Below are positions 38,975 to 52,722 of a stretch of DNA of 64,000 nucleotides, piece by piece; the stretch's first letter is position 1; every line of letters starts with the position of its first letter. A program made the translations under genes and the position numbers. This stretch comes from an uncultured Allomuricauda sp. (GTDB lineage Bacteria > Bacteroidota > Bacteroidia > Flavobacteriales > Flavobacteriaceae): assembly GCF_947499585.1 (NCBI RefSeq), contig NZ_CANMOO010000002.1, positions 620,001-684,000 on the forward strand, in the 5' to 3' direction. The notes under the pieces were generated by a model. That model worked only from the letters and a program-made list of their open reading frames with translations, made no database searches and was not told the DNA's origin.

Positions 38975-39748
38975 TTATTTAGTGCTGCCATTTATATGGT
39001 TTACCATCTTACAACCATCCTGATTACCATTGTTACAAGCAGATGTATAAAAAGATAGGGCTCTATTTAAATCTTTTGGTATTTCTTGTCCGTTAAAATA
39101 AAGGCTTCCAATTTGGAACTGGGCATTTGCATAGTTTTGATCGGAGGCCAACATAAAATTGGAAATTGCTTTTTGAACATCCTTCGGAACCCCTTGACCA
39201 TTGAGGTACATGATTCCTAAATTATATTGTGCAGCCGCAAATCCTTTGCTGGCTGATTTTTTAAACAGCTTATAGGCCTTCCCATAATCTACCGCTGTTT
39301 CTTTCCCAAAATAATATTTACATCCTCTTTCAAAGCTGTTCCCGTTCGTTGGAAAAAACCATATAATAGCTATAACAATAAGCAAAATCCACAATGCAAA
39401 CCCCCATACCCAATCCATAGTCGGAATTTCGTATTCAGGCAAAGGTGTTGGGAAAAAACCGCTTTCTTGAAATGCTTTGATTTGCTTCTCATCTAAAGGA
39501 TAATAGGACCCTGAGGTGCCACGTATACCAAGAACATAACCATCATCGGATAAATATGCCCCCATAAAGAAAAATATGCCGGTAGTCTTATAGGCAAGAT
39601 AAACTTCTTCCCCATTAGGGCCTTTGCCTTCTAAAGCCATAATTTCCTTTATGCTTTCGTCTTTTCCAAAAAGACCTCCTATCTTCTTAGCAGATGCTAC
39701 GTTTGGAATTAATATGGCGAATGAAAAGAGTAGTAAAAATAATCTCAT
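38975..39748 (-). CDS. Sel1-repeat membrane protein
   Basis: A 257-residue protein with a signal peptide (ends near VASA, residue 20), a TM helix at about 131-150 (WGFALWILLIVIAIIWFFP) and a C-terminal domain of two to three Sel1-like repeats: YNLGIMYLNGQGVPKDVQKA and FQIGSLYFNGQEIPKDLNRA. Such repeats form protein-protein interaction superhelices. Topology suggests a small periplasmic N-terminal part and a cytoplasmic Sel1 domain. It lies 45 nt downstream of the PP2C phosphatase gene and appears to be the last gene of that operon; no separate promoter is visible. Confidence 0.85.
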   Translation of the reverse strand: MRLFLLLFSFAILIPNVASAKKIGGLFGKDESIKEIMALEGKGPNGEEVYLAYKTTGIFFFMGAYLSDDGYVLGIRGTSGSYYPLDEKQIKAFQESGFFPTPLPEYEIPTMDWVWGFALWILLIVIAIIWFFPTNGNSFERGCKYYFGKETAVDYGKAYKLFKKSASKGFAAAQYNLGIMYLNGQGVPKDVQKAISNFMLASDQNYANAQFQIGSLYFNGQEIPKDLNRALSFYTSACNNGNQDGCKMVNHINGSTK

Positions 39749-39793: not shown

Positions 39794-40699
39794 TTATTGT
39801 CCTAAGTCCCATAGTTTGTACAAACAAAACCCAAGCAATAACAGTAGTATAAAAAATACAATTTTTAAATAGGGTTTAGGGTTTTTCTTATTTTTCAAGT
39901 TTGTCTCAAAAACTGCTTTTGTCGCACTTGTATTTTGCAGGTCAAGAGTTTGTTCTGTGTCTGTCTTTTTGATTTTGATGAGATACAAGGAATAGTTGTC
40001 CTGGGTTCTCCCCGAAGCATTTTTTAGGATTTTGGATTTTACTTCTTCGGCTGTACTTTCTGATGTGAACCAATTCCTTATTTTATCTTCATCCAATGTT
40101 TCTAGAATACCATCAGTGCACAACAAAAAGAAATCATTTTTTCTAATATCTTCAATCACTTTATGATCTATTCTAGTGGGCCTTACTCCGCTTACGGCTC
40201 TTGTAATGACATTTTTTCGAGGATGATTTTCTGCTTCTTCTTGGGTGATTTCACCCATATCAAGTAAATTTTGTACTTCAGAATGATCTTTGGTCTGGAA
40301 CAATATTTCCCCATTACGAAGGTGATACACTCTACTGTCCCCTACCCACCCTATTAGCGCGTGCTCTTTATTATGTGATAATTTAAGTAACGTTAAGGTA
40401 CTTGCCATTCCTTTTAGAACGGGTACTGTAGAAATGTTATCAACAAGTTTTTTTTCTGTATACTCCAGTGCTTTGGGCAAAATATCAACGTCCTTTACAT
40501 CAGCATCGTTCTTATTAATAAACTCTGCCATATACTTACACACCAAAGATGAAGCTACTTCTCCTTTTTCATGTCCGCCTACCCCGTCACACACCAAAAA
40601 AAGCTCATCTTTTCCTGTTGGTTCTTCAGGGTATATGGAATCTTCATTGTTATTCCGATTTCCGATTTCATTAATGTAGACGGGAGTAAATACTTTCAT
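39794..40699 (-). CDS. PP2C-family Ser/Thr phosphatase with C-terminal membrane anchor
   Basis: A 301-residue protein phosphatase. Metal-binding motifs are NNNEDSI (around Asp20) and CDGVGGHEKGEVAS (Asp38), followed by GWVGDSRVYHLRNGE and LLCTDGILETLDEDKI. These are the PPM/PP2C signatures. The last ~25 residues (YLKIVFFILLLLLGFCLYKLW) form a single membrane-spanning tail, placing the catalytic domain at the cytoplasmic membrane. It is likely to reverse the Ser/Thr kinase of the same island. Its ATG overlaps the stop of the upstream STM3941-like gene (ATGA). Confidence 0.95.
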   Translation of the reverse strand: MKVFTPVYINEIGNRNNNEDSIYPEEPTGKDELFLVCDGVGGHEKGEVASSLVCKYMAEFINKNDADVKDVDILPKALEYTEKKLVDNISTVPVLKGMASTLTLLKLSHNKEHALIGWVGDSRVYHLRNGEILFQTKDHSEVQNLLDMGEITQEEAENHPRKNVITRAVSGVRPTRIDHKVIEDIRKNDFFLLCTDGILETLDEDKIRNWFTSESTAEEVKSKILKNASGRTQDNYSLYLIKIKKTDTEQTLDLQNTSATKAVFETNLKNKKNPKPYLKIVFFILLLLLGFCLYKLWDLGQ

Positions 40700-41276: not shown

Positions 41277-41732
41277 TTAATTAATAACTGCCTGTTTCAT
41301 CAATTCTCTTTTTACCCATAAGCGCATTTTACGCCCTATACCATAAGTGTCTATATTATTTAAAAGATCCTTTACGGTTGCCAATCCAAAAAAAGTACAG
41401 CCAGAACAGACGGATACTTTACTCTCCGATCTGTACAATTCTCGTATTGTTTTTTTCTGATCTCTTCTTAAGGTTAATTTTCCAGAAAACATTAATTCTT
41501 CATATACTATAACTGCCATAATGCGTTCTGCTGTGTTATGTGAATACAAAAGTTGTCCAATCTCATCATATCTGGATGCACTAATATACTGATGCATTTT
41601 CTTCACAACATATGTTGGTTTTCCAACAAAAGAACAGCTAAAGCCAATGGTTTCGCTAAAATAATCAGTTGTTTGGGCATTAATAAATCCCAAGTTAATT
41701 AAAACAAATAATAGTCCGATCTGATATTTCAT
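41277..41732 (-). CDS. Secreted protein of unknown function
   Basis: A 151-residue protein. I chose the ATG at 41732 because it opens directly on a signal peptide (MKYQIGLLFVLINLGFINAQ); the frame also runs to a TTG at 41753. The mature part contains four Cys (SFVGK region and VCSGCTFFGLATVKDLL), among them a CSGC pair that could form a disulfide or bind metal. Charged helical segments such as RRDQKKTIRELYRSESKV are present. It starts 43 nt after the lipoprotein gene and ends 2 nt before the STM3941-like gene. No family recognised. Confidence 0.7.
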   Translation of the reverse strand: MKYQIGLLFVLINLGFINAQTTDYFSETIGFSCSFVGKPTYVVKKMHQYISASRYDEIGQLLYSHNTAERIMAVIVYEELMFSGKLTLRRDQKKTIRELYRSESKVSVCSGCTFFGLATVKDLLNNIDTYGIGRKMRLWVKRELMKQAVIN

Positions 41733-41775
41733 TGCACATCCATTGTTTGCCAAGAATTAATACGGTTCTCAAAAA

Positions 41776-42315
41776 TCACCAATTTACAGTACCATTCATG
41801 GTGAGAATTGTACCTGTTTCAACATTCTTTACAGTAACATTAGAAAGTACACTTTTTTTCGCTTCAGCATCCAATACAATAGACCCACATGCTATTGAGG
41901 TTTCAAAAAGTGAGTCGCATATGTAACGTCTCTCTATCCCATTGACCACAATTACCATAGAAATCAATTCTTGCCCAAGAACTATTACAAAAGTGTTTTC
42001 TATATCCTCAAAACTTATAATAGATTCTACATAATCAGGGTCATTTAAAGGCAAATCAGGCGCGTCTTCTGATATTTTAGCGCCCTTAGGCACTATTATG
42101 ATAGTTTCATCCAATCCTGTTAAATCTTTTCTCCCATAGTTTATATCTCCTACTTCTAATTGGGTCCCTATCTCAGTAGTGTCTTCTCCTGATAAGGTAA
42201 TTACGCCCCTGGCATCTGTACTTGCTATTTCTTCTTCGCTGCTATTATCATTGTCGCAATTAATAGATAAGAACATCACAGACAGCATGGTTAATATGGT
42301 GTAAATAGTCTTCAT
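41776..42315 (-). CDS. Lipoprotein of unknown function
   Basis: A 179-residue protein with a lipoprotein signal peptide: hydrophobic stretch TILTMLSVMFLSINC with the lipid-accepting Cys at residue 20, followed by DNDNSSEEE. The Asp/Ser-rich tether is typical of Bacteroidota exported lipoproteins. The mature domain is beta-rich with two further Cys (YICDSLFETSIACGSIVLDAE). It is the second gene of the operon started by the ECF-type promoter at 42888. No family recognised. Confidence 0.75.
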   Translation of the reverse strand: MKTIYTILTMLSVMFLSINCDNDNSSEEEIASTDARGVITLSGEDTTEIGTQLEVGDINYGRKDLTGLDETIIIVPKGAKISEDAPDLPLNDPDYVESIISFEDIENTFVIVLGQELISMVIVVNGIERRYICDSLFETSIACGSIVLDAEAKKSVLSNVTVKNVETGTILTMNGTVNW

Positions 42316-42348: not shown

Positions 42349-42864
42349 CTAATTGTTGACTTTTAAAGAAATGGTGTTCTCTGAAACACTATTTATGGTG
42401 AAGCTTTGCTTTAAGTTCTGCGGTACTTCTTGCCATATATCATCTGCTGTTTTTTTAGATTCTACACTAATGGTTGCATTGTTATTAGCAAAAGTCTTTG
42501 ATACCTTTTTTACACTTTTTATTCCTTTAATGTGTTCTTGCAGTTGACTCAGGTTCTCATTCCCATACTCCACAGAATGAATCTGAATGACAACGATGTT
42601 TTTAGATTTACCTTCTTTAGAGCCAAAAAGTATTTTCCCCACCTTGTCAATTGTCTCTTTGGTTCCTTCAATGGTGTTTTCAATACTTACGGTAGTACTA
42701 TCTATTTGTGCATTGGTTTCCTCAACAGTGCGGTCCGTCTTGTCAATTTTCTTGGTAACAGTTCTCTCTTTGGTCCGATCTGTTCTGCGTCTTTCGTTTT
42801 GAGCTAGTGCCGGTCCAAAAATCATAATCGACAAAAGCATCAAAAGGGTTGTTCTGGATTTCAT
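42349..42864 (-). CDS. Secreted protein with C-terminal ferredoxin-like domain, unknown
   Basis: A 171-residue protein. The signal peptide ends near ALA (residue ~21). A highly charged Arg/Lys/Thr/Glu linker (about 23-65) follows, then a ~75-residue C-terminal domain (IQIHSVEYGNENLSQLQEHI, GIKSVKKVSKTF, ATISVESKKTADDIWQEV) whose beta-alpha-beta-beta-alpha pattern resembles HMA/ferredoxin-like folds but lacks a CxxC metal site. It is the first gene of the PP2C operon and lies 23 nt downstream of the ECF-type promoter. Function unknown. Confidence 0.72.
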   Translation of the reverse strand: MKSRTTLLMLLSIMIFGPALAQNERRRTDRTKERTVTKKIDKTDRTVEETNAQIDSTTVSIENTIEGTKETIDKVGKILFGSKEGKSKNIVVIQIHSVEYGNENLSQLQEHIKGIKSVKKVSKTFANNNATISVESKKTADDIWQEVPQNLKQSFTINSVSENTISLKVNN

Positions 42865-42887: not shown

Positions 42888-42925
42888 TTTATTCTTTATA
42901 ACTACTTTTTAAGAATGTCATCTTT
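42888..42925 (-). promoter_or_regulatory. ECF-type promoter 1 (PP2C operon)
   Basis: On the minus strand AAAGATGACATT (42914-42925) is followed by 11 nt and then GTTATAAAGAATAAA (42888-42902). The same two blocks with the same 11-nt spacer occur at 46641-46678 and 52685-52722. A match to ECF layout would be AAGATGA, 15 nt, GTTAT. The promoter sits directly after the terminator of the kinase operon. Confidence 0.8.
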
Positions 42926-42930
42926 TTAAG

Positions 42931-42975
42931 CAAAAAAAATCTTGAATAGAACTTAAAAGCGTTCTAAACAAGATT
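42931..42975 (-). terminator. Terminator of the HD-kinase operon
   Basis: A long hairpin: AATCTTG (42938-42944) pairs with CAAGATT (42969-42975) and TAGAAC (42947-42952) pairs with GTTCTA (42961-42966), with a symmetric 2x2 internal loop and an 8-nt apical loop. On the minus strand it ends in eight T. It lies 35 nt past the 53-residue gene and 6 nt before ECF-type promoter 1. Confidence 0.85.
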
Positions 42976-43009
42976 CTTGTAATTGAGTTAGTAAGGGGTT
43001 TTCTATAAA

Positions 43010-43171
43010 TTAAATGTCCTTTTCTTCTGTAATAGAGCTTAGTGTAAATCGATCATAGGCCCTAACATCAAAAACGATGGACTGTCCGGTTGACAACCAT
43101 TTTTTATATATAAGCTTGCCGTTCATATAGACATAGAGCTCATTGTCCTTGGTTTCTTTTTTGTAGATCAT
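43010..43171 (-). CDS. 53-residue protein translationally coupled to the Ser/Thr kinase
   Basis: A small gene whose ATG overlaps the TGA of the kinase gene (ATGA, 43168-43171). The product begins MIYKKETKDNELYVYMNGKL and ends in ITEEKDI. It is charged and beta-prone, without Cys, signal peptide or TM helix. The 4-bp overlap, the following strong terminator and the absence of stops support it as a real gene rather than a kinase remnant. It might be a small partner of the kinase or a detached piece of its C-terminal beta domain. No family recognised. Confidence 0.7.
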   Translation of the reverse strand: MIYKKETKDNELYVYMNGKLIYKKWLSTGQSIVFDVRAYDRFTLSSITEEKDI

Positions 43172-46053
43172 CTTTTTGTCCCCTCAACTTTAAAATCATC
43201 AAAATAAAGAACAGGATTACTACTGGGGTTAGAGACTATCATTCCCATATATTTGCCCCCCGTGCTTTGTATTGGCTGGCTAGAAATAACAATCTTGCCA
43301 TTAAGATAACATGAGACATAATTTCCGTTTTTACGAATCATTATCGTGTTTGTCCCTTCTTTGGTAGTAACATTAACCCCTTTTATTTTGTTCCATTTAC
43401 CGCCTTCATATTTATGTATATTTACTGTGTTGTTACCCACTTCAGCAATATGATAGTCATCAGAACCATTATAATCAAAAACCAATCCTATCGCTGCTTT
43501 ACTGCTTCCCCTGATTGTTTTTGTGCTTACCGAATAAGGCTTTGTGGCATCTATATCAAAATAAGCCGTCTTTTTGTGGCTTAGCTCCTTATTATTAACG
43601 TTTATCTTATAGGCACTAAACTCGTAGGTCCACTCCTTATTTGTATCAGAAAATTTTGGGAACTTTGTTGAACCGTTGGTGAAATTCTCATGATAACTAA
43701 ATTTCTTGGCTTTTAATGCGGCCTGCTTTTTCAAGTCTTCCACTTCCTTTTCTTTTGTTGTAAGGGTAGCTCCATATTTAAGCAGTAGCTCTTCTATTTC
43801 TTTGTTTTCCATGTTTCGGGCTACTTGTAATAGGCTTTCATCATCTTCAATATAGTCAACATCCTTGGCTAAATACCCACCACCTTCTCTTGGGGTTATT
43901 AGAATTTCCAATACCTCAACGTCGTTTGTCTTTATTGCGGCCTTTAATTTTTTATCATCCACAATTGTTTTTTTTCCTCCTCCTTTGTTTACAAAAAGAC
44001 CGAGAATTTCTTTTAAAGCTTCCTTGTTTTCATCCGTATACTTGTCTAGAATCCTGTAGGTTACACCTTCTTCAAAATAAGCTTTAGCATCATTGTAAAT
44101 GGCTTTTTTAAATTGAGAGACATTCACGTTTTCAATCCCTTCATTAAAATCATATCCAATTTTGGATTTAGACCATTGATTATAAAACATGATTACTAGT
44201 ACAAGAGTGAAAATGCTTATTGCAGGCCAGAAGTATTTTTTGAAGCTGGTCTCTTTTATTGCCGAATAAATGATTACCATAAATCCAAAAAACATAGAAA
44301 AGTACCACATGTAATACCCTATCTTAAAGTCTTGAATATATACCTTAGAGCTCACCTTGGCAATCAAAGAACTATAAAAACCTTTCCCGCCTTGAAAAAA
44401 CAAAGAATTAGTTTCTAAAAACAGCCACCATAATGAAGCAATGCCAACACTTGCGATAAAAAATAATATCAATGTGTTTCCAAAGTCTTTATGTTTTTTA
44501 TAAATAAAGAAGAATAGGGCGGCAATAAATAGTACATTGGGCATGAGTGTAAGCACCATCCATTGTTTATCTAATAATAACACTACCATAAAACCGATAG
44601 TATCTTTATAAATATCGAAGAAATACGATATACAATAGGTCAATAAAAAAAACAATGCCAGATAGTTTTCGATAGCGAACCTTCTTTCGGGTTTCTGGGA
44701 TGTGTTTTTTATATCCCTATAAACCAACCAAGAGAAAACTAGTCCTTGGATTATTCCTAAAAATAGGAAAACATAGTCTTCTGCTTTTAAGCTACTATTT
44801 ACTGACATTGCTATAACAACGGAAGCAACTATTAGGTTACAGTAAAATAAAAAACCTGTATTAAGGAGTTTTGGCAAGGTATATTGGTTTTTAGGCTTGA
44901 CATAAAAAACAGCAAAGAGGAAAACTGATATTGGGTAAAGAAGAAAGGCATATACAGTATTCTCTGAATCTAAAATCAAGTAGGCAGACCATAGAATCGA
45001 AATTCCAGTATAAATCCAAAGTACTATTTTCTGAAGTTTAGTGACTTTAAAGTCCTGATCACTTTTAGGTTTATCTTCTCCTTCTTTTGTGATAAATACT
45101 GTATTGTCAATATCCTCTTTTTGAGGTTTTTCTTCTTCAACAATTGTACTCTCTATATCCTTTTTTTTCTTAGTATATACCTTATAATCGGAATTTATAT
45201 ATTGTAATAATTCTTCTGCAGAAGATGGTCTGTTAATGGCTTTCTTTTCAAAACATATAGAAAGCAGCTTCTTGTAATCTTCTGGAATACTATTTAAGTC
45301 AGGGTCTTTCTCGGTGATGGCATCACGAACTAATTCAATATCATCCATTCCCTCACCAAAAGGATATTTGCCCGTTAAGCTTTTATAAACAATTACTCCA
45401 ATAGCCCACAAGTCAGTCCTTGAACTTATGGTGCCGTCCAAACCAAATTTCTTCTTGTGGAACTGTTCTGGCGCCATATAATGGGGCGTTCCTATCATTT
45501 CTGTAAAAGACTTGGTAATATTTTCTGCAGACAGTGTATCCTTACTAATCCCGAAATCTGAAATCTTAGCGGTAGGAACTCCTTTTTTATTTTTGGTAAT
45601 CAGAATATTCCCTGGCTTTAGGTCTCTGTGCAAAAGCCCTTCTTCATGTAGATATCCCACACCCAGGACAATATCCCTAATGAGCTTGTCCAGTACCTCT
45701 TTTGAAGGTTTAGTCTTTACAAATTCCTTTAAGGTTCCTTGGTTAGCATACTCCATGATAATCACGGGATAGCTGCCAGACCTACCCATGGCATCTGTAT
45801 GCTTTATATAGTTAAGACCAAAATAAGTTATGATGTTTGTATGGGATAGGCCTTCCAAATTATTAAACTCTTTTTCTAAACTATACTTGGACTGCCTTGT
45901 GCTGCCCATATCGCCCGAAGTAACAGCTATTTTATAGATTTTGAGCGCTACGTTCCTATTGGCATAGGTGTCTTTGGCTCTAAAGACTTCTGCAAAGGCA
46001 CCTTCTCCTAGCTTATCTTTTTCGGGATCCCATTCGTATTGGTTTAGTTTCAT
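43168..46053 (-). CDS. Transmembrane Hanks-type Ser/Thr protein kinase with ankyrin-like and beta-sandwich C-terminus
   Basis: A 961-residue protein. The kinase domain (about 5-275) is complete: glycine loop LGEGAFAEVF, ATP Lys38, catalytic HRDLKPGN (142-149, Asp144), DFG at 166-168 and APE at 194-196; the HRD Arg makes it an RD kinase that may need activation-loop phosphorylation. An acidic linker (280-335) leads to a large membrane domain with about ten helices (340-640). After it come an ankyrin-like pair (around 700-770: DDESLLQVARNMENKEIEELLLKYGA) and a C-terminal LamG-like beta-sandwich (about 790-960). The extracytoplasmic part would sense ligand or cell-wall state. It is 74 nt downstream of the HD gene and lacks its own copy of the ECF-type promoter. 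Confidence 0.95.
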   Translation of the reverse strand: MKLNQYEWDPEKDKLGEGAFAEVFRAKDTYANRNVALKIYKIAVTSGDMGSTRQSKYSLEKEFNNLEGLSHTNIITYFGLNYIKHTDAMGRSGSYPVIIMEYANQGTLKEFVKTKPSKEVLDKLIRDIVLGVGYLHEEGLLHRDLKPGNILITKNKKGVPTAKISDFGISKDTLSAENITKSFTEMIGTPHYMAPEQFHKKKFGLDGTISSRTDLWAIGVIVYKSLTGKYPFGEGMDDIELVRDAITEKDPDLNSIPEDYKKLLSICFEKKAINRPSSAEELLQYINSDYKVYTKKKKDIESTIVEEEKPQKEDIDNTVFITKEGEDKPKSDQDFKVTKLQKIVLWIYTGISILWSAYLILDSENTVYAFLLYPISVFLFAVFYVKPKNQYTLPKLLNTGFLFYCNLIVASVVIAMSVNSSLKAEDYVFLFLGIIQGLVFSWLVYRDIKNTSQKPERRFAIENYLALFFLLTYCISYFFDIYKDTIGFMVVLLLDKQWMVLTLMPNVLFIAALFFFIYKKHKDFGNTLILFFIASVGIASLWWLFLETNSLFFQGGKGFYSSLIAKVSSKVYIQDFKIGYYMWYFSMFFGFMVIIYSAIKETSFKKYFWPAISIFTLVLVIMFYNQWSKSKIGYDFNEGIENVNVSQFKKAIYNDAKAYFEEGVTYRILDKYTDENKEALKEILGLFVNKGGGKKTIVDDKKLKAAIKTNDVEVLEILITPREGGGYLAKDVDYIEDDESLLQVARNMENKEIEELLLKYGATLTTKEKEVEDLKKQAALKAKKFSYHENFTNGSTKFPKFSDTNKEWTYEFSAYKINVNNKELSHKKTAYFDIDATKPYSVSTKTIRGSSKAAIGLVFDYNGSDDYHIAEVGNNTVNIHKYEGGKWNKIKGVNVTTKEGTNTIMIRKNGNYVSCYLNGKIVISSQPIQSTGGKYMGMIVSNPSSNPVLYFDDFKVEGTKR

Positions 46054-46127
46054 TTGGTTGAGTGTTAGGCTAATCGTATTACAATTTAAAAAACTTCTTC
46101 TTCTAGGTAAACTTTAAAATCTATGGG

Positions 46128-46634
46128 TCACTTATTTACTTCCTTAATCAACCCAAACAACCTTTCCCATGCCTTGTCCACTTCCACATCTGGATGTTCA
46201 TCATTACGCAGTTGGTCACAAAATTCTTCATGCTCTCCTTTATAGGTTTCAAATAATTTTTGATTGTACCTTTTGGATTGTTCCATATTGGCAATACGGT
46301 CACATATTTTTACTACCGTGGCCTTCCAATTTGCTTTTATCTTTGGGTATGTTTTTGTTTTACGTTCCTTTCTATTTCTTCCCAGCTCATCGGTCACGGC
46401 ATAAACAATCTCTGCTACTTCTTCCCCAAATGCCTTTTTTAAATCGTTATATGAAAGATCTGTATCCTCTAAGGTGTCGTGCAACACAGCTGCCATGATA
46501 ACACTTTCATCATACCCTAAATCTTCGATTATTTTCACCACTTGTTTTATATGGTATATGTATGGGTATATATCATATTGCTGATTTGAGTGGGCTTTTT
46601 CTGCTACAAGTAGGGCTCTTTCTTTGTTGGTCAT
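46128..46634 (-). CDS. HD-domain hydrolase, small alarmone hydrolase (MESH1)-like
   Basis: A 168-residue single-domain HD protein. It resembles the hydrolase half of RelA/SpoT: AEKAH near residue 11-15, metal ligand His28 in YIYHIKQV, HD pair at 52-53 in AAVLHDTLEDT, and the distal Asp112 in VKICDRIANMEQS. RelA/SpoT/MESH1 proteins read RxxHxxxV, HDxxED and LADRxHN at these places, so ppGpp pyrophosphohydrolase is the best guess, with another nucleotide substrate possible. It is the first gene behind ECF-type promoter 2, and the kinase follows. No synthetase domain is present. Confidence 0.83.
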   Translation of the reverse strand: MTNKERALLVAEKAHSNQQYDIYPYIYHIKQVVKIIEDLGYDESVIMAAVLHDTLEDTDLSYNDLKKAFGEEVAEIVYAVTDELGRNRKERKTKTYPKIKANWKATVVKICDRIANMEQSKRYNQKLFETYKGEHEEFCDQLRNDEHPDVEVDKAWERLFGLIKEVNK

Positions 46635-46640
46635 TGTTGT

Positions 46641-46678
46641 TTTATTCTATATAACAAGAAAAGTGAAATGTCATCTTT
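46641..46678 (-). promoter_or_regulatory. ECF-type promoter 2 (HD-kinase operon)
   Basis: AAAGATGACATT (46667-46678), 11 nt, then GTTATATAGAATAAA (46641-46655), read on the minus strand. The second block differs from promoter 1 at one of 15 positions. The block ends 6 nt before the ATG at 46634, so the transcript leader would be very short. Confidence 0.82.
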
Positions 46679-46750
46679 AAAGTATTAAACTCAGCTAAAA
46701 TTTATTTAATTCTTGGTATTTGCCCAAGGTGCTTTTTAAATACTTTTATT

Positions 46751-47968
46751 TCATTTTTCTGTATACACTGTAGTTTCAAAGGAGGCTTTTTCCATAAAAA
46801 GGCGAGCCATTTTATTTTTGGTGATTTCTACCTGTTCCAGCGGCTTGGGTTCTTTAGCATGGACATCCAACTCATATATCATTGTGCCTTCAACTAAAAA
46901 ATAACGATGTCTATTCTTTTCCTTGACCTCGTAGACCTTGGCTATTTCAGAATCCAAATTTGAGTTTATTATAAGTTCAAGCGTGTTCTCTGTTTCATTA
47001 AAAAAATAAGTGCCCAAAGAACTTTCTGAATCGTAATTTACCTTTAGGTTTTTAGATTTCCCTGAAAACCTAGTGATGTCTTCCAACACTATGTCCAATT
47101 TCTCTTTGGATGGATTTAGCTTTGGTTTTATCTTCAATAATGAATTGCCAAAAGAACTATCGGTTCGCAGCTCCTCCAAAGGTTTTATGCCAGCTGTTTT
47201 ATCAATTGAAAAGTATTTGTTTTTATAAAACAAAACATATTCTTCTTCTTTGTTCTTTATAAGCTCCAGTTGTAATTTAGATAGTAAAGGGTCTCCAAAA
47301 AGTGTTAGTTTATCGCCATCAAAAGTATACCGCAGGGGAAGTGGGTATTCTATCGTTCTAACCGATTCTGGAGGAAGAGGCGTAAAGCCACCTAAAGCCA
47401 ATTGAGTGTCGTTATTTATATTGTCTAACTGAACGGTATCCCTAGACTTGTCTTTTAATCCCTCTTGATTGACCAATTCTTCGTCAACTTGATTTTCTGT
47501 TTTTGTTTGCTGCGGTTTTTCTTCTTGTACTAAACGCTCTTCATCAATAGGGTTTTCTATAGTGTCCTTGCTATTGGACTGCACCGTATCAATGTCAACT
47601 ATAATTGGGTTAACATCTTTAAAAATAGGGTTCTGTCCATCGTTTCGATAATAAAAAAACAATAGCAATCCTATAAGAACGCAAGCCGCTATTCCGCTGC
47701 CAAATACAACCAGTCTGCGATAATACCCTTTGTTGGTCTTGCTTTTATTTTCTTCTTTGTAACTATTGTAATATGATGTGAGCCTTTCTTTTAAGACAGT
47801 ATCACCCTGTTGTTCTATTCCCTTATATATTTGCTTGTAGACTTTTAGTTCCTTGGCAAAACTTGTATCTTCAGCAATGCGTTTTTCAACCATTTCCTTT
47901 TCAGACTTGGTTAAGGCATTGCTCAAGTATTTATCTATTAAATCTATATGTCTTAAATCTTCTTCCAT
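46751..47968 (-). CDS. Putative membrane anti-sigma factor
   Basis: A 405-residue single-pass membrane protein. The N-terminus DLIDKYLSNALTKSEKEMVEKR resembles the zinc-free anti-sigma head of Bacteroidota (a helix bundle that would hold the sigma factor). One TM helix lies at about 86-106 (LVVFGSGIAACVLIGLLLFF). The rest is extracytoplasmic: an acidic Gln/Glu/Asn-rich linker and a ~220-residue beta-rich domain that I do not recognise and that is not obviously FecR. The gene starts 1 nt after the sigma gene stops, the usual sigma/anti-sigma arrangement. The role is inferred from layout. Confidence 0.75.
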   Translation of the reverse strand: MEEDLRHIDLIDKYLSNALTKSEKEMVEKRIAEDTSFAKELKVYKQIYKGIEQQGDTVLKERLTSYYNSYKEENKSKTNKGYYRRLVVFGSGIAACVLIGLLLFFYYRNDGQNPIFKDVNPIIVDIDTVQSNSKDTIENPIDEERLVQEEKPQQTKTENQVDEELVNQEGLKDKSRDTVQLDNINNDTQLALGGFTPLPPESVRTIEYPLPLRYTFDGDKLTLFGDPLLSKLQLELIKNKEEEYVLFYKNKYFSIDKTAGIKPLEELRTDSSFGNSLLKIKPKLNPSKEKLDIVLEDITRFSGKSKNLKVNYDSESSLGTYFFNETENTLELIINSNLDSEIAKVYEVKEKNRHRYFLVEGTMIYELDVHAKEPKPLEQVEITKNKMARLFMEKASFETTVYTEK

Positions 47969-47969
47969 G

Positions 47970-48530
47970 TTATTTAAGGCCTATAATGACTTCATAAGAT
48001 ATGCCGCTTCTTAATTTTTTCAAACATCTCAATTTCTGTTGGCTTGCTGAACGTGGGCCAGAATAATCAAATTTCTCTGCTATGTCTTCCATTCGCATAC
48101 CTAAAAAAATAGTTGTCTCCAACAAGGACTTACAGGGTTCCCCAAGCTTTTCCAGCGCTTCCATTAAATATTTTTTGAGAGAGGGTCCTTTGTAGGTAAA
48201 TTCAATTTCATCATCCTCTTGCCCCCAATCCACAACCACAACCCCATCGCTCTGTTTTTCATATTTCTTTCTTCTATTTAGCTGGTTGAGCCATTGCCGT
48301 TTGGAAACTTCAAAAAGATAGGTGCTTATCTTGCTCCTAAGTTCATATTTGCCCGCCATTACATTTTTGTAGAAAACTATGATCGCCTCTTGGAAAACAT
48401 CAAGGGCATCGTCATCATTCCCACTATTTTGAGATATCCATCCTTTTACCTTCCCTAAATGTTGATAAAGATGTTGTAAGCACCCCTCATTGCCATTTTT
48501 AAGTTGGTCTATCAGTTCTTGGTCGGTCAT
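47970..48530 (-). CDS. ECF-type RNA polymerase sigma factor
   Basis: A 186-residue sigma-70 family factor. Region 2 contains NDDDALDVFQEAIIVFYKNV followed by STYLFEVSKRQWLNQLNRRKK (the -10 recognition helix); region 4 contains GEPCKSLLETTIFLGMRMEDIAEKFDYSGPRSASQQKLRCLKKL, a helix-turn-helix for the -35 element. Regions 1 and 3 are absent. It is the fourth gene of the operon that starts at ECF-type promoter 3, so it probably directs its own synthesis and that of the other two operons. Confidence 0.92.
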   Translation of the reverse strand: MTDQELIDQLKNGNEGCLQHLYQHLGKVKGWISQNSGNDDDALDVFQEAIIVFYKNVMAGKYELRSKISTYLFEVSKRQWLNQLNRRKKYEKQSDGVVVVDWGQEDDEIEFTYKGPSLKKYLMEALEKLGEPCKSLLETTIFLGMRMEDIAEKFDYSGPRSASQQKLRCLKKLRSGISYEVIIGLK

Positions 48531-48555
48531 TCAAGAGCTTTTTCTATGTTGTTTG

Positions 48556-49419
48556 CTATAAAGCAAGATTTAAGTTGTCTTCTATTGGCACTCTAAATTC
48601 GTATCCTTCTATCTGTATCGCTATCTCTCCCAAAATACTAAAATTAACTTCGGTTTTTGTAAGCCAAGACAATTTGGCTTGTTTTAAAATATCAAAATTG
48701 TTTAGGGTAACATCTACAGGGATCAAAGCTTTTTGCAGGCTTTCTTGTCTTAAGGGTTGAGAAAGCTGCCAATTGGCAACTTTAGCGCGGCTCTTATCCA
48801 GATAAAAATCAAGTTGCAACTCATTTATCATATAGTCTAATGGAAGGTTGTTTTTGGTTTCTATCTGAAGCTGTAATTTGGTTGTGTTAAATGATGGGAG
48901 TCTGTTGGAGGATATTGATCGAATTTTAAAATTATCAGCTGTACTTAAATTTTTTCTTATTTGCTCATGGATTATACTCTTCGTATTTAAATGGATTTCA
49001 TCGTCCATATCAATCGTAAAAGAATTCAAGAGAAAACTTACCCGGCTATTTCCTTTTATGGAAAAAACGGCGGAATCAGACGTGATAAGTTCTGGATAGT
49101 ATTTGTGTAATTTCTCTACAGCGATTTCAAAACGTACAGGTACACTAAGGGTATCATTGGCCACTAAATTTATCTGTTTGTCCAAATACCCGTTTCCCAC
49201 AAGAGAATCTTTATAGAATATCTCCATCCCAGATTGTCTCAACTTAGTTTTTACATCGTTAGGGTTGTATACCACATAATCCATGGTGACCAATAAGAGA
49301 CTATCTTTTAATCCAAGTATGGAAACATTGTCTACCTGAATAAATTTTGGTTTTTTACTGCAAGAAGTACATATGCCCATTCCCAGTAAGAGTATAAATA
49401 TCTTTCGCATTTGAATCAT
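48556..49419 (-). CDS. LEA14-like (LEA type 2) lipoprotein
   Basis: A 287-residue lipoprotein. The signal peptide MRKIFILLLGMGICTSC ends in a lipobox Cys. Two immunoglobulin-like WHy/LEA14-type domains follow: each has a VxYxNPN-like start (VTMDYVVYNPNDVKTKLRQSG and LQIETKNNLPLDYMINELQL) and a VRFE or IPVDV edge strand. Such domains act in stress or membrane-lipid handling. Its ATG lies directly after the stop of the FHA-ABC gene; a second ATG at 49410 would also give the full signal peptide. The tight junction suggests it serves that transporter in the periplasm. Confidence 0.83.
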   Translation of the reverse strand: MIQMRKIFILLLGMGICTSCSKKPKFIQVDNVSILGLKDSLLLVTMDYVVYNPNDVKTKLRQSGMEIFYKDSLVGNGYLDKQINLVANDTLSVPVRFEIAVEKLHKYYPELITSDSAVFSIKGNSRVSFLLNSFTIDMDDEIHLNTKSIIHEQIRKNLSTADNFKIRSISSNRLPSFNTTKLQLQIETKNNLPLDYMINELQLDFYLDKSRAKVANWQLSQPLRQESLQKALIPVDVTLNNFDILKQAKLSWLTKTEVNFSILGEIAIQIEGYEFRVPIEDNLNLAL

Positions 49420-51831
49420 TTAAATACTGTCTTTTTTCTTTAAGGCCAAATAAATCAGGATATAAAAAAGGACATTCAACAGCGCTATTACAAGTATGTT
49501 TTTATCAAAGCTATTGAACACCCCTCCTATCAAACTCCCTTCATCCATTAATTTTTGATTGTATAAATCCAAAATATCCATTGCAGAGGTAGAATCTTCC
49601 ACAACACCTTTTTTAAGCTGTGTTGAAGCGTCTGATACTTCTTTTGCACTGGCATTAAAATTACTTGGTGAAGGGTATGATGTTAAAACACTCTCTTTGG
49701 ATCCTAAATTTCTTGGGTGGGAAGGAGAAGCCTCATCCTGCAATCTGGCAAAACCTTCTGTGCCCCATCTGCCAAGAGTAAAAAAGCTTAAAATCTCTAC
49801 AAGAACATTATTGATTTTTGTCATTACCCCGGCCAGCATAATCTGAGGCATTAAAGCAATAGGAACCACGGTCATTACTTTTTCCGTAGAGTTTAAAGAT
49901 GATGAAAGCCATAACCCAATAAGAGATGCTGAAAAAGAAATATAGAACATGAACAGAATTCCTTGGCCATAAGGTCTAAGATAAACCTCATCAAAATCAC
50001 CATACGTATTGAATTTGAAATTGAGGTATATCACACTTACAAAAACGATGGTTTGTACTAGGGCAATAAGGGCTAGCACTATCCATTTAGAAAGTATATA
50101 GGTATGTATATTGAGGTTGAACATACGCTCCCTTTTGTATACTGAAAGCTCCCCAACAACTTCTTTTGCTGCATTGCTTACCCCAAACCATATTGCGGAT
50201 ATAGCCATTAAAAATAGCACCCCTATTTGAAGCCGGTCAAACACCAAACATACCAAGCCGGCAATAATAACGGGTTGTGCCAATAGCAACAATAGATTCT
50301 CCTTGTCGTTTATTTTGATGTTGAAATATCTAGACACAAGCCAGTAAAGTTGTAACCATAGCGAATCTGGTTTGTCCCGTTTAAAATCCGTTGTGTTGGA
50401 ATTTTTATACGCTATTGCATTTGGCTTTTGGTAGTAGGTAGATTTTACCATATTTGAGTCGCTCATTTTACTATACACCTGTATAATATTTTCCGCGCCA
50501 AAATGACTGGTTAACAATTGTGCCGGGCCCTTGTAAACAAGGTGTCCTTGTACTCCCAAGAAAATGACCTGATCCACATAATTTAAATCTTCCGGCTTAT
50601 GGGTAACCATGACAATTGTGGTTCCAGAATGTGCCAGTTTTTGTAGACTCATTAAAAAACTCTCTATGGTCTCTGGGTCAAGTGGAGATGTTGGTTCGTC
50701 CAAAAACAAAATGGTAGGTTCGGTCAATAATTCTACAGCAATGGAAATTCTTTTACGTTGACCCCCAGAGAGGCTACCCACTTTAACATCCTTAATATCT
50801 TTTTCCTTGTCTTGATTTAGGTTAAGGTCTGTTATTACCTTGTTTATCCTTTTGTTTATTTCTTCATTCGTGGTATCATCCGGCAGGCGTAATTTTGCCG
50901 CATAAAACAATGTTTTATAAACGGTCAACTCTTTATGGATAATGTCATCCTGAGGCACGTACCCAATCTTTTTCTTAATTAGGTTGAAATTTTTTCTCAG
51001 TGACAAACCATGGATAAAAACCTCCCCGGAAGTTGCCGGATTATCGCCGTTTAAACATTTTAGCAATGTAGATTTTCCGCAACCTGAAGGTCCCATAAGA
51101 GCGACAAAGCTTGAATTGGGAATATCCATGGAAAGGTTCTGAAGTCCAATTTTATTGTTCGGGTATTTCTTTTGGATAGAAACAGCCTTTATCGCATATT
51201 TTTCCTTTCTTAAATCTTTGCTTCCCTCAACAAGGTTGATCATATATGAGGATATGGTGACAATATCGCTATCCTTTAAAGCCACCTTACCTGTAACCTC
51301 CCTCCCGTTTATATAGGTCTTATTTTTAGAGCCAAGGTCTTCAACATAGTACTTTTTATCCTCAACACTAATTCTTGCATGAACACGCGTTACCGTAGGG
51401 TCGTCAAAGACAATGTCGTTAGAGGGCAGCCTCCCAACATTTAGAAAGCCCTTTTTATCAATTTGTGATTTAAAATCTGAGGTCTCCTTAAGCTGTGGCT
51501 CTTCAGCACTCTCTGATTGTGAAGAAATTTCCTCCTCTACTGGCACTACTACTTCATCAAACAGATTAAAGGTTTGAGAAGCAATGGTAACCCTATCTTT
51601 AAGTGTAATTTCCACCCAATCATTGGATACAATTCTTTTTGCATTCAATAAAATGCCATTGGCACTTTCCAAATCCTTGATAAATACCTTAGGGCCCACT
51701 TTTTTCACCAAAGCATGCTTGCGGGATGCAGTACGGGAATCTATTTCAACATCGGCCCCATGTCCCTTTCGTCCAATTGAGATGGGAGTTTCCGATAATT
51801 CCAGTCTGGTACGATTAAATTCTAAATACAT
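49420..51831 (-). CDS. Double-FHA ABC transporter (Rv1747-like)
   Basis: An 803-residue fusion. FHA1 (about 1-90) has RKGHGADVEIDSRTASRKHA; FHA2 (about 125-200) has VGRLPSNDIVFDDPTVTRVHA followed by SKNKTYINGREV. The ATPase domain has Walker A GPSGCGKST (247-255), the signature LSGGQRKRIS and Walker B TILFLDEPTSPLD. An ABC2-type membrane domain with six helices fills the C-terminal ~320 residues. The order FHA-FHA-NBD-TMD is that of mycobacterial Rv1747, an exporter regulated by kinase PknF binding phosphothreonine through FHA. Here a kinase and phosphatase are encoded in the same island, so control by phosphorylation is strongly suggested. The exported substrate is unknown. Confidence 0.94.
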   Translation of the reverse strand: MYLEFNRTRLELSETPISIGRKGHGADVEIDSRTASRKHALVKKVGPKVFIKDLESANGILLNAKRIVSNDWVEITLKDRVTIASQTFNLFDEVVVPVEEEISSQSESAEEPQLKETSDFKSQIDKKGFLNVGRLPSNDIVFDDPTVTRVHARISVEDKKYYVEDLGSKNKTYINGREVTGKVALKDSDIVTISSYMINLVEGSKDLRKEKYAIKAVSIQKKYPNNKIGLQNLSMDIPNSSFVALMGPSGCGKSTLLKCLNGDNPATSGEVFIHGLSLRKNFNLIKKKIGYVPQDDIIHKELTVYKTLFYAAKLRLPDDTTNEEINKRINKVITDLNLNQDKEKDIKDVKVGSLSGGQRKRISIAVELLTEPTILFLDEPTSPLDPETIESFLMSLQKLAHSGTTIVMVTHKPEDLNYVDQVIFLGVQGHLVYKGPAQLLTSHFGAENIIQVYSKMSDSNMVKSTYYQKPNAIAYKNSNTTDFKRDKPDSLWLQLYWLVSRYFNIKINDKENLLLLLAQPVIIAGLVCLVFDRLQIGVLFLMAISAIWFGVSNAAKEVVGELSVYKRERMFNLNIHTYILSKWIVLALIALVQTIVFVSVIYLNFKFNTYGDFDEVYLRPYGQGILFMFYISFSASLIGLWLSSSLNSTEKVMTVVPIALMPQIMLAGVMTKINNVLVEILSFFTLGRWGTEGFARLQDEASPSHPRNLGSKESVLTSYPSPSNFNASAKEVSDASTQLKKGVVEDSTSAMDILDLYNQKLMDEGSLIGGVFNSFDKNILVIALLNVLFYILIYLALKKKDSI

Positions 51832-51842
51832 CTGGGTAGTTG

Positions 51843-52679
51843 CTATTGACGGTTAACAATATATTGTTCGATGCATTTTTTTCTGTGTTCTGCGAATGGA
51901 TGGGTGGAAGTAAGCTTTTTGATTAAATCTTGCTTCTGATATTTCCCAAGCTTTTTGAAGAAATCAGCAAACTTATTTACATCATACCCTGCGTTGCGTG
52001 CTAGTTCAAAACCATGTTTATCAGATTCATACTCATCTATTTGATCAAACGGTGGAGAGAAAGTGCTGTTCAGGCCTTTGGCAATATCACCAAAGATTTG
52101 CACTCGTGTTCTATTTGACAAGTCTGCGGACAGTGTTAGCTTGGTTACTTTTCTTTGCGTATGTAGTTTGTCTTCATGGGCCACCTCATGGCCTATTATA
52201 AAGGCCAGCTCATCATAGGAGTCCACAAAATCTATTAAACCGGTAGTAATGTAAAGGTATCCTCCAAGTGTAGCAAATGCGTTTATTTCATCCGATTTTA
52301 AAATACTCAAACGGTATGTAACATCTTTCCGATTAACATATTTGGTCAGGTTTTTCAGTATCTCTTCTGCTTTGGGGTATATACTATGCCCATTATCTAT
52401 TTTACCCAACACTTTATATTGATTATAGATATCCCTGCCAATGGTACTCTTAGAATCACTTGTAACCAAAAGCATCGCATCCAACCAATTATTTTCAAAC
52501 TGCTTAATAATAAATGCTGGTCCATCAAATGCATGCCCACAATCTTTTAGCACAGTTGCTTGTTCCATTTTAGCCTGGTAATCGCTCACTATTTCATCAA
52601 TTGCGGACTGTGGTAATTCTTGAGAGATCACGACCTGTAATCCCAAGAAAATCAATAATATTAGTTTGGTTTGGCTCAT
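51843..52679 (-). CDS. M48-family zinc metalloprotease
   Basis: A 278-residue secreted protease with a signal peptide ending near VVISQ (residue 20). The zinc site is HEVAH at 164-168 (FIIGHEVAHED), and the third ligand Glu is in EYESDKHGFELARNAGYD. The INAFATLGGYLYITTGLIDF segment is the usual M48 substrate-edge strand. No TM helix besides the signal is seen, so it works in the periplasm, probably in protein quality control. It is the first gene behind ECF-type promoter 3, followed after 11 nt by the FHA-ABC gene. Confidence 0.92.
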   Translation of the reverse strand: MSQTKLILLIFLGLQVVISQELPQSAIDEIVSDYQAKMEQATVLKDCGHAFDGPAFIIKQFENNWLDAMLLVTSDSKSTIGRDIYNQYKVLGKIDNGHSIYPKAEEILKNLTKYVNRKDVTYRLSILKSDEINAFATLGGYLYITTGLIDFVDSYDELAFIIGHEVAHEDKLHTQRKVTKLTLSADLSNRTRVQIFGDIAKGLNSTFSPPFDQIDEYESDKHGFELARNAGYDVNKFADFFKKLGKYQKQDLIKKLTSTHPFAEHRKKCIEQYIVNRQ

Positions 52680-52684
52680 CTTGT

Positions 52685-52722
52685 TTTATCGTATATAACC
52701 AAAAATAGAAAATGTCATCTTT
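52685..52722 (-). promoter_or_regulatory. ECF-type promoter 3 (protease-FHA-ABC-sigma operon)
   Basis: AAAGATGACATT (52711-52722), 11 nt, then GTTATATACGATAAA (52685-52699), read on the minus strand. The second block matches promoter 2 at 13 of 15 positions. It ends 5 nt before the ATG at 52679. Because the operon includes the sigma gene, it would give autoregulation. Confidence 0.82.

Follow-up and report, generated by a model that had tools for sequence, protein, structure and literature searches.

The 64,000-nucleotide (nt) stretch analysed here (the window), positions 620,001 to 684,000 of contig NZ_CANMOO010000002.1 from an uncultured Allomuricauda sp., carries a 14-kb gene island whose three operons, delimited by gene spacing, all lie on the minus strand. 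A 38-bp element precedes each operon, and one of the operons encodes an extracytoplasmic function (ECF) sigma factor. The element is best interpreted as the dedicated promoter of this sigma factor (-35 GATGACATT, 12-nt gap, -10 TTATA), driving all three operons, a reading to which sequence comparison lends a probability of about 0.85. The features of the island are as follows.

52685..52722, minus strand: predicted promoter P1 (-35 core GATGACATT at 52719-52711, -10 core GTTATA at 52699-52694; ATG 14 nt beyond the -10 core)
51843..52679, minus strand: M48-family peptidase (HEVAH) with an N-terminal hydrophobic segment (Pfam PF01435, 8.5e-23)
49420..51831, minus strand: double FHA domain fused to an ABC ATPase and an ABC-2 membrane domain (Pfam PF00498 in two stretches, PF00005, PF01061)
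48556..49419, minus strand: LEA_2 domain protein with a lipoprotein-like N-terminus, judged by eye (PF03168, 5.2e-10)
47970..48530, minus strand: ECF sigma factor, 186 residues (TIGR02937, 59.8 bits against a cut-off of 42.9; Sigma70_r2 and Sigma70_ECF above cut-off)
46751..47968, minus strand: putative membrane anti-sigma factor, 405 residues, 1 nt downstream of the sigma gene
46641..46678, minus strand: predicted promoter P2 (-35 core at 46675-46667, -10 core at 46655-46650; ATG 15 nt beyond the -10 core)
46128..46634, minus strand: HD-domain protein, 168 residues, resembling small alarmone ((p)ppGpp) hydrolases, HDTLED motif (PF13328, 1.7e-15)
43168..46053, minus strand: membrane Hanks-type Ser/Thr kinase, 961 residues, about seven predicted membrane segments and a C-terminal extension (PF00069, 1.4e-47)
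42888..42925, minus strand: predicted promoter P3 (-35 core at 42922-42914, -10 core at 42902-42897; ATG 32 nt beyond the -10 core, counted by hand)
42349..42864, minus strand: small exported-looking protein, 171 residues, without a convincing family in profile searches
41776..42315, minus strand: putative lipoprotein, 179 residues, judged by eye; no family found
41277..41753, minus strand: small protein, 158 residues, TTG start as listed, with an N-terminal hydrophobic segment
40696..41274, minus strand: STM3941-family membrane protein (NF041635, 137.5 bits against a cut-off of 40)
39794..40699, minus strand: PP2C-type Ser/Thr phosphatase with a C-terminal membrane segment (PF13672, 4.7e-12)
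38975..39748, minus strand: Sel1-repeat protein, the last gene of operon C (PF08238, 5.5e-23)

Operon A (start 52679) comprises the M48, FHA-ABC, LEA, sigma and membrane-protein genes, separated by 11, 0, 25 and 1 nt. Operon B (start 46634) consists of the HD and kinase genes with 74 nt between them, and operon C holds six genes from 42864 down to 38975 with every gap at most 45 nt. A sequence-only reading of the window had placed the element upstream of first genes at 42864, 46634 and 52679, an ECF sigma factor in the operon starting at 52679, and the kinase, phosphatase, FHA-ABC exporter and protease across the three operons; the reading-frame list, the sigma-factor models and the Pfam annotation bear it out. 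The 186-residue protein is an ECF (group IV) sigma factor by TIGR02937, which scores above its cut-off across residues 19-175, and Pfam reports no separate region-4 model for it. Later versions of the ECF definition are restricted to proteins with sigma-2 and sigma-4 (PMC8103513).

The element in the window and its genome

The pattern AAAGATGACATT-N11-GTTATA occurs in three minus-strand copies that start at 52722, 46678 and 42925. A search of the 64 kb allowing up to three mismatches returned these three matches only (52685-52722, 46641-46678 and 42888-42925), each with no mismatch, and 100 dinucleotide-preserving shuffles gave a mean of 0. As had been claimed, the 12-nt block is identical in all copies, the gap is 11 nt in each, the second blocks (GTTATAAAGAATAAA, GTTATATAGAATAAA and GTTATATACGATAAA) differ at three of 15 positions, and the window holds no further copy. 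The spacers and flanks of P1 to P3 are, by eye, mostly dissimilar to one another. The earlier assignment of boxes fared less well: its two-box layout stands, but the proposed cores AAGATGA and GTTAT are better replaced by -35 GATGACATT and -10 TTATA, the latter often followed by YA.

Within the complete set of contigs (3.77 Mb, 14 contigs), the same search at up to three mismatches gave 14 matches: three with none, one with two and ten with three. The matches beyond the three island sites are at background level, because the reversed-pattern control gives 12, and the search yielded nothing above this control that would indicate a wider regulon. The two-mismatch match (G000:C2:749978; handles in G denote genomes, G000 being the window's own, and handles in L individual loci) is followed, by eye, by a terminator-like hairpin and no gene start. 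All three own-genome matches to GATGAYATY-N11-GTTATA at one mismatch fall inside long open reading frames (L122, L214 and L215). The genome-wide motif search proposed in the sequence-only reading thus found no exact copy at unrelated genes, and its view of the whole island as one regulon is supported, narrowed to a predicted private regulon whose three sites all lie inside the island; the stress or signal induction that it proposed is conjectural. A scan for sigma-70 promoters and terminators gave results at the level of shuffled sequence. The predicted leaders downstream of P1 and P2 would be very short, under about 10 nt; the median leader in Flavobacterium psychrophilum is 24 nt (PMC9723704).

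Conservation and distribution of the element and its sigma factor

Conservation was examined in 14 closest-type islands, that of the window among them, picked from those fetched to limit redundancy; a relaxed pattern recovered 34 sites, which come from related sequences and are hence not independent. A site precedes the M48-FHA/ABC-LEA-sigma operon in 14 of 14 islands, and at least one further site precedes the second half of the island in all except L108, whose contig ends early. The sigma operon thus has a predicted promoter of its own type with a counterpart in every island compared, which qualifies the factor as a predicted autoregulated ECF; about 55% of ECFs are predicted to be autoregulated (PMC8103513). 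Over the 34 sites, both blocks and their spacing persist with few one- or two-base deviations (of the four G305 sites, two have GGTATA and one has GTCATC in place of GTTATA, and one G023 site has GGTATA), and the spacers diverge. Column counts were made over 31 sites, leaving out three GTTATAAA sites (P3 of the window, its G042 counterpart and one in G023), and block conservation in these counts is partly by construction, because the pattern fixed most block positions. Conserved positions that the pattern left free are an AAA before GATGAC (A at -2 and -1 in 29/31 each, A at 0 in 27/31), T at 17 (29/31) and G at 20 (25/31), and most spacer positions vary.

The island is patchily distributed. 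Among 60 genomes of the genus, 54 of them at least 90% complete, the sigma orthologue is found in 12, including the window's own, at 65-98% identity in the others; among 397 genomes of the family sample, a sigma above 60% identity occurs in three, own included. The closest named carriers include Flagellimonas olearia, F. meridianipacifica, [Muricauda] okinawensis and [Muricauda] yonaguniensis, which places the window in the Flagellimonas/Muricauda group of Flavobacteriaceae. Exact matches to GATGAYATY-N11-GTTATA were present in 12/12 genus genomes with the sigma gene versus 1/48 without it; at one mismatch, matches spread over 52 of the 60 genomes in a background-like manner. The three exact matches of this shorter pattern outside islands (in G083, G042 and G047; L119, L120 and L121) lie inside long open reading frames, one of them on the opposite strand. 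With YA added to the pattern, 31 exact matches were obtained in 11 genus genomes, all carrying the sigma gene, and 30 of the 31 were inside islands (reversed control, 0). This refined pattern marks 11/12 genomes with the sigma gene versus 0/48 without (Fisher 3.5e-11, a value that ignores shared descent).

Two genomes carry the sigma orthologue twice, G013 (L046 and L052) and G079 (L116 and L117), as two diverged island copies, each with its own sites. In some islands a further site lies about 1.6 kb upstream, before a gene that is PcfJ-like (PF14284) in the one copy tested. This gene (L103:4349-5872) and its equivalents in G013, G017, G027, G083 and G305 have their own copy of the element, making it an extra predicted regulon member that the window does not show.

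A comparison with sister sigma factors offers a stronger test than the co-occurrence of element and sigma gene. Sister ECF genes encode proteins 27-38% identical to the window sigma and have otherwise different neighbouring genes. The pattern GATGACATT-N12-CGATA gave 42 matches in 16 of the 60 genus genomes, two or three in each (reversed control, 3), and an ECF of the sister group lies within about 10 kb of the CGATA sites in 15 of these 16; near the CGATA sites of G037, a 79%-complete assembly, no sister-group ECF was found. The second box ends equally far from GATGACATT at the sister loci and in the window, so that the -35 is the same and the -10 is another (CGATA). Three genomes (G013, G017 and G079) hold both the TTATA and the CGATA systems. 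At one sister locus (L055:2870-12216), three GATGACATT-N12-CGATA sites accompany the sigma gene, a TPR protein with an anti-sigma-like start and a TPR-CHAT protein.

Two Bacteroidota metagenome-assembled genomes provide more distant islands. L109 and L110, with sigma factors at 42% and 41% identity, keep the M48, FHA-ABC, LEA and sigma genes, the membrane neighbour, two kinase genes and PP2C, and in them M48, kinase or PP2C genes are preceded by sites of the GATGAC or GTGAC type.

Sigma region 2.3-2.4 (the L3 loop) reads the -10 box. Region 2 has the form [SG]KIS[TS]Y in users of TTATA versus [GSN][NS][VLI]x[GA]Y in users of CGATA or CTATA (NNLKGY, GNVSGY, SNLEAY, GSIEAY and similar), and L109 and L110 have a window-like island and region-4 helix but CGATA or CTATA and the NNLKGY form. 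The region-4 helix, taken from the alignment, reads S[ATV][RS]xxKxRC in GATGAC users versus NAKxQKYKC in most distant relatives that lack the island (17 of 20), the other three having TVKSKKYQC, SASNQKHKC and TAKSKKYQC. This residue pattern is what a match between sigma factor and promoter would predict, and lineage explains part of it.

The distant relatives also bear on whether any ECF gene would show such an arrangement. An ECF at E <= 1e-28 was found in 42 of 395 genomes of the phylum sample, own included. No island was seen at 20 distant ECF loci (28-38% identical by BLAST; 20 of the 47 places besides the window's, one on a contig of 6.7 kb), and a loose motif search outside long frames found six scattered sites in five of the 20. 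A generic ECF explanation is rejected on these grounds.

Sequence establishes where the sites lie, that they are confined to the island and that they are conserved together with the sigma gene, and the earlier proposal of one ECF-type promoter common to three operons, the sigma factor's own among them, gains support from the genome search, the comparison of islands, the co-occurrence with the sigma gene and the sister sigma factors. Several observations nevertheless weigh against it. The element is without the AAC (-35) and CGT (-10) boxes of the original ECF definition (PMC8103513). Co-occurrence ties the element to the island, and shared descent alone could produce much of it; the helix comparison likewise doubles as a phylogenetic grouping. 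Neither the window's P3 nor any G023 site matches the refined pattern. In the family sample this pattern matches G000 and G210, which both have the sigma gene, and once G468, which is not among the sigma matches; G305 has the sigma gene, yet no exact match. Since the reversed control in this sample gave six matches, the refined pattern is no more than background outside sigma carriers. One-mismatch copies outside long reading frames occur in two genomes without the sigma orthologue (L125:2273 in G020 and L126:2370 in G028), which suggests chance or remnants. The M48-operon site of L113 carries a degenerate GTCATC for GTTATA, and that of L110 (GATGACGTT) has, by eye, a gap one base longer. No CGATA site lies near the sister-rank ECF of G027:C1 or near several ECFs at 26-29% identity (for example in G003, G012 and G023, and the second one in G040), and L112 has a similar helix, SVKNGKYRC, though no operon-start motif was seen there. 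Finally, the anti-sigma role of the 405-residue neighbour is putative, drawn from its position and topology.

Alternative accounts of the element and of sigma control

An alternative for the step upstream of the promoter is that the kinase phosphorylates and directly activates the sigma factor, as reported for EcfP and EcfK of group ECF43, and that the membrane neighbour is not an anti-sigma factor. This is compatible with a shared promoter, and it would fit the Hanks kinase found in every island whose fetched sequence reaches far enough, as well as the report that a class I anti-sigma gene lies near only 6% of Bacteroidetes ECFs (PMC7406223). The neighbour consists of a conserved N-terminal part of about 85 residues, a predicted membrane segment (86-104 in the window copy) and a large C-terminal part. 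Pfam, NCBIfam, PHROGs and a PDB sequence search detected no convincing known anti-sigma domain in it, and a weak zf-HC2 match (best E 0.18) appears in three of 12 members and not in the window copy. A relative of this protein nonetheless adjoins the sigma gene in 16 of 16 islands compared (the 14 of the close type, L109 and L110). Furthermore, the window sigma keeps its region 2.2 acids: in place of the canonical DAED it has DALD, preceded by additional acidic residues, whereas EcfP has an uncharged STTA (PMC8999054, PMC8103513); the replacement of DAED by uncharged Ser/Thr residues that defines ECF43 is not found. Direct activation of the ECF43 type is less likely because these acidic residues are kept, and we consider it unlikely overall.

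It is improbable that the element instead serves as operator for some transcription factor different from the sigma factor and accompanies the island through common descent. Island presence and absence would yield the same co-occurrence, and four island proteins have no family assignment. Profile searches detected no other DNA-binding regulator among the island genes, however, and the element has two fixed blocks at promoter-like fixed spacing, 14-32 nt before start codons. The sister sigma loci, with different genes, keep one block and change the other.

The 12-nt block could also open the reading frame of a conserved leader peptide (ATG ACA TTT ... GGT TAT ATA ... TAA), with regulation at the level of translation. 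Each of the three window copies reads ATG, nine codons and TAA ahead of its gene, many relatives read MTF..FGYI, and AAAGATG fits an A-rich start context. In-frame stops nevertheless occur before the end of the second block in 3/29 distinct sites of this type, 5/30 of the sister type and 1/6 of the distant type; some distant copies begin with GTG, and in several copies the frame continues beyond the stop position of the window. Because of these stops the leader peptide is rejected as a general explanation over the 65 distinct sites, and its probability is very low. As 56 of the 65 stay open, a local role in the window copies may be envisaged.

Three near-identical copies within 10 kb might suggest a housekeeping promoter, or a local duplication of recent date that confers no specific regulation. 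This is scarcely credible: read by eye, the sites do not fit the flavobacterial primary-sigma -7 box TAnnTTTG (PMC9723704); the spacers and flanks of P1 to P3 mostly differ from one another, by eye, while the blocks persist across species; and the genome has no exact copy elsewhere.

Island proteins and the predicted switch

The island proteins retain many of the residues expected of their families. The HExxH of the M48 peptidase is kept in the window copy and 15/15 relatives. The kinase has VALK, HRDLKPGN, DFG and APE, and patterns for all four are present in 16/16 relatives, so that the catalytic Lys, HRD and DFG of a Hanks-type kinase are found throughout; a strict glycine-loop pattern matches the window kinase but just 4/16 relatives. 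The phosphatase scores 186.2 bits with the Stp1 model, under its cut-off of 230, and a strict pattern for the first PP2C motif matched 2/14 of its relatives. The HD protein, with an HDxxED motif and no synthetase domain, is a predicted small alarmone hydrolase by sequence; it scores 79.5 bits with spoT_relA, under the whole-protein cut-off of 499.2, and resembles solved RelA/SpoT and Mesh1-type proteins in a sequence match to structures. A strict pattern for its first HD motif matched two of four relatives. The islands of G042 and G210 contain close homologues of this protein, and those of G013, G017 and G083 have matches of 38-39% beside them.

Behind the second island promoter, the first gene often encodes a relative of the 171-residue exported-looking protein. 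The STM3941-family protein of the phosphatase operon is 95% identical in G042, 92% in G210 and 52% in G305. A 53-residue reading frame (43010-43171, minus strand) lies between the kinase gene and P3 and overlaps the kinase stop codon by ATGA. The kinase and the ABC part also gave PADLOC matches, apparently because of shared, generic domains.

The best reading of the predicted regulon is that it is private, its three sites all inside the island, and positively autoregulated. The sigma factor would transcribe three sets of genes: M48, FHA/ABC, LEA, sigma and putative anti-sigma; HD hydrolase and kinase; and small exported proteins, PP2C and Sel1. Its membrane neighbour would hold it off until an envelope signal freed it, and the freed sigma would amplify its own operon by positive feedback. 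The kinase, phosphatase, phospho-binding exporter, protease and alarmone-hydrolase-like protein would then rise together as a self-contained switch. More speculatively, the putative anti-sigma or the FHA-ABC exporter may be a target of feedback from the kinase/phosphatase pair. A broader proposal, which we regard as tentative, is a self-contained phospho-signalling switch: the sigma factor would have targets only inside the island, among them its own operon and the genes for the kinase, the phosphatase and the phospho-binding exporter, and these three would in turn govern its release. The switch would then be part of a sigma lineage of Bacteroidota in which the -35 box (GATGACATT) stays constant and changes in sigma region 2 give rise to new -10 boxes (TTATA, CGATA, CTATA), keeping sister regulons of the same cell separate.

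Each part of this arrangement has counterparts in known systems. Systems of the RpoE-RseA type share the sigma-2/sigma-4 factor, the neighbouring membrane protein and the promoter before the factor's own operon; unlike them, the island uses GATGACATT/TTATA rather than AAC/CGT, has no recognised anti-sigma domain, and gathers all predicted targets in one place with a kinase/phosphatase/FHA-ABC set. In group ECF43, EcfP (with PknT) and EcfK (with PknS) are likewise linked to Hanks-type kinases (PMC8999054, PMC13147305), whereas here the region 2.2 acids are kept, an anti-sigma-like gene is present and the kinase gene is itself a predicted sigma target. PknF-Rv1747 of Mycobacterium tuberculosis, likened by description and not by sequence, is a Ser/Thr kinase encoded with an ABC exporter having two FHA domains, in contrast a two-gene operon, and the available description mentions no ECF sigma. 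The ECF sigma at L055, with its TPR membrane-type neighbour and TPR-CHAT protein, recalls CASP-sigma/Csx30/Csx29 in outline (PMC10028731); unlike that system, the window island has no CHAT protein among its genes by Pfam. Among the titles and abstract openings of the literature matches listed, with most subscription literature outside their scope, none describes this island or promoter, and GATGACATT together with sigma factor and promoter has one match listed, on Crl and sigma-S.

For the Bacteroidota (6% of ECFs near a class I anti-sigma gene; PMC7406223), the island adds a clear candidate pair of sigma factor and promoter with a closed regulon. The sister pairs, with a common -35 and different -10 boxes, provide a natural test case for the divergence of ECF promoter specificity, and the island links predicted ECF control to a kinase/phosphatase/FHA-ABC module.

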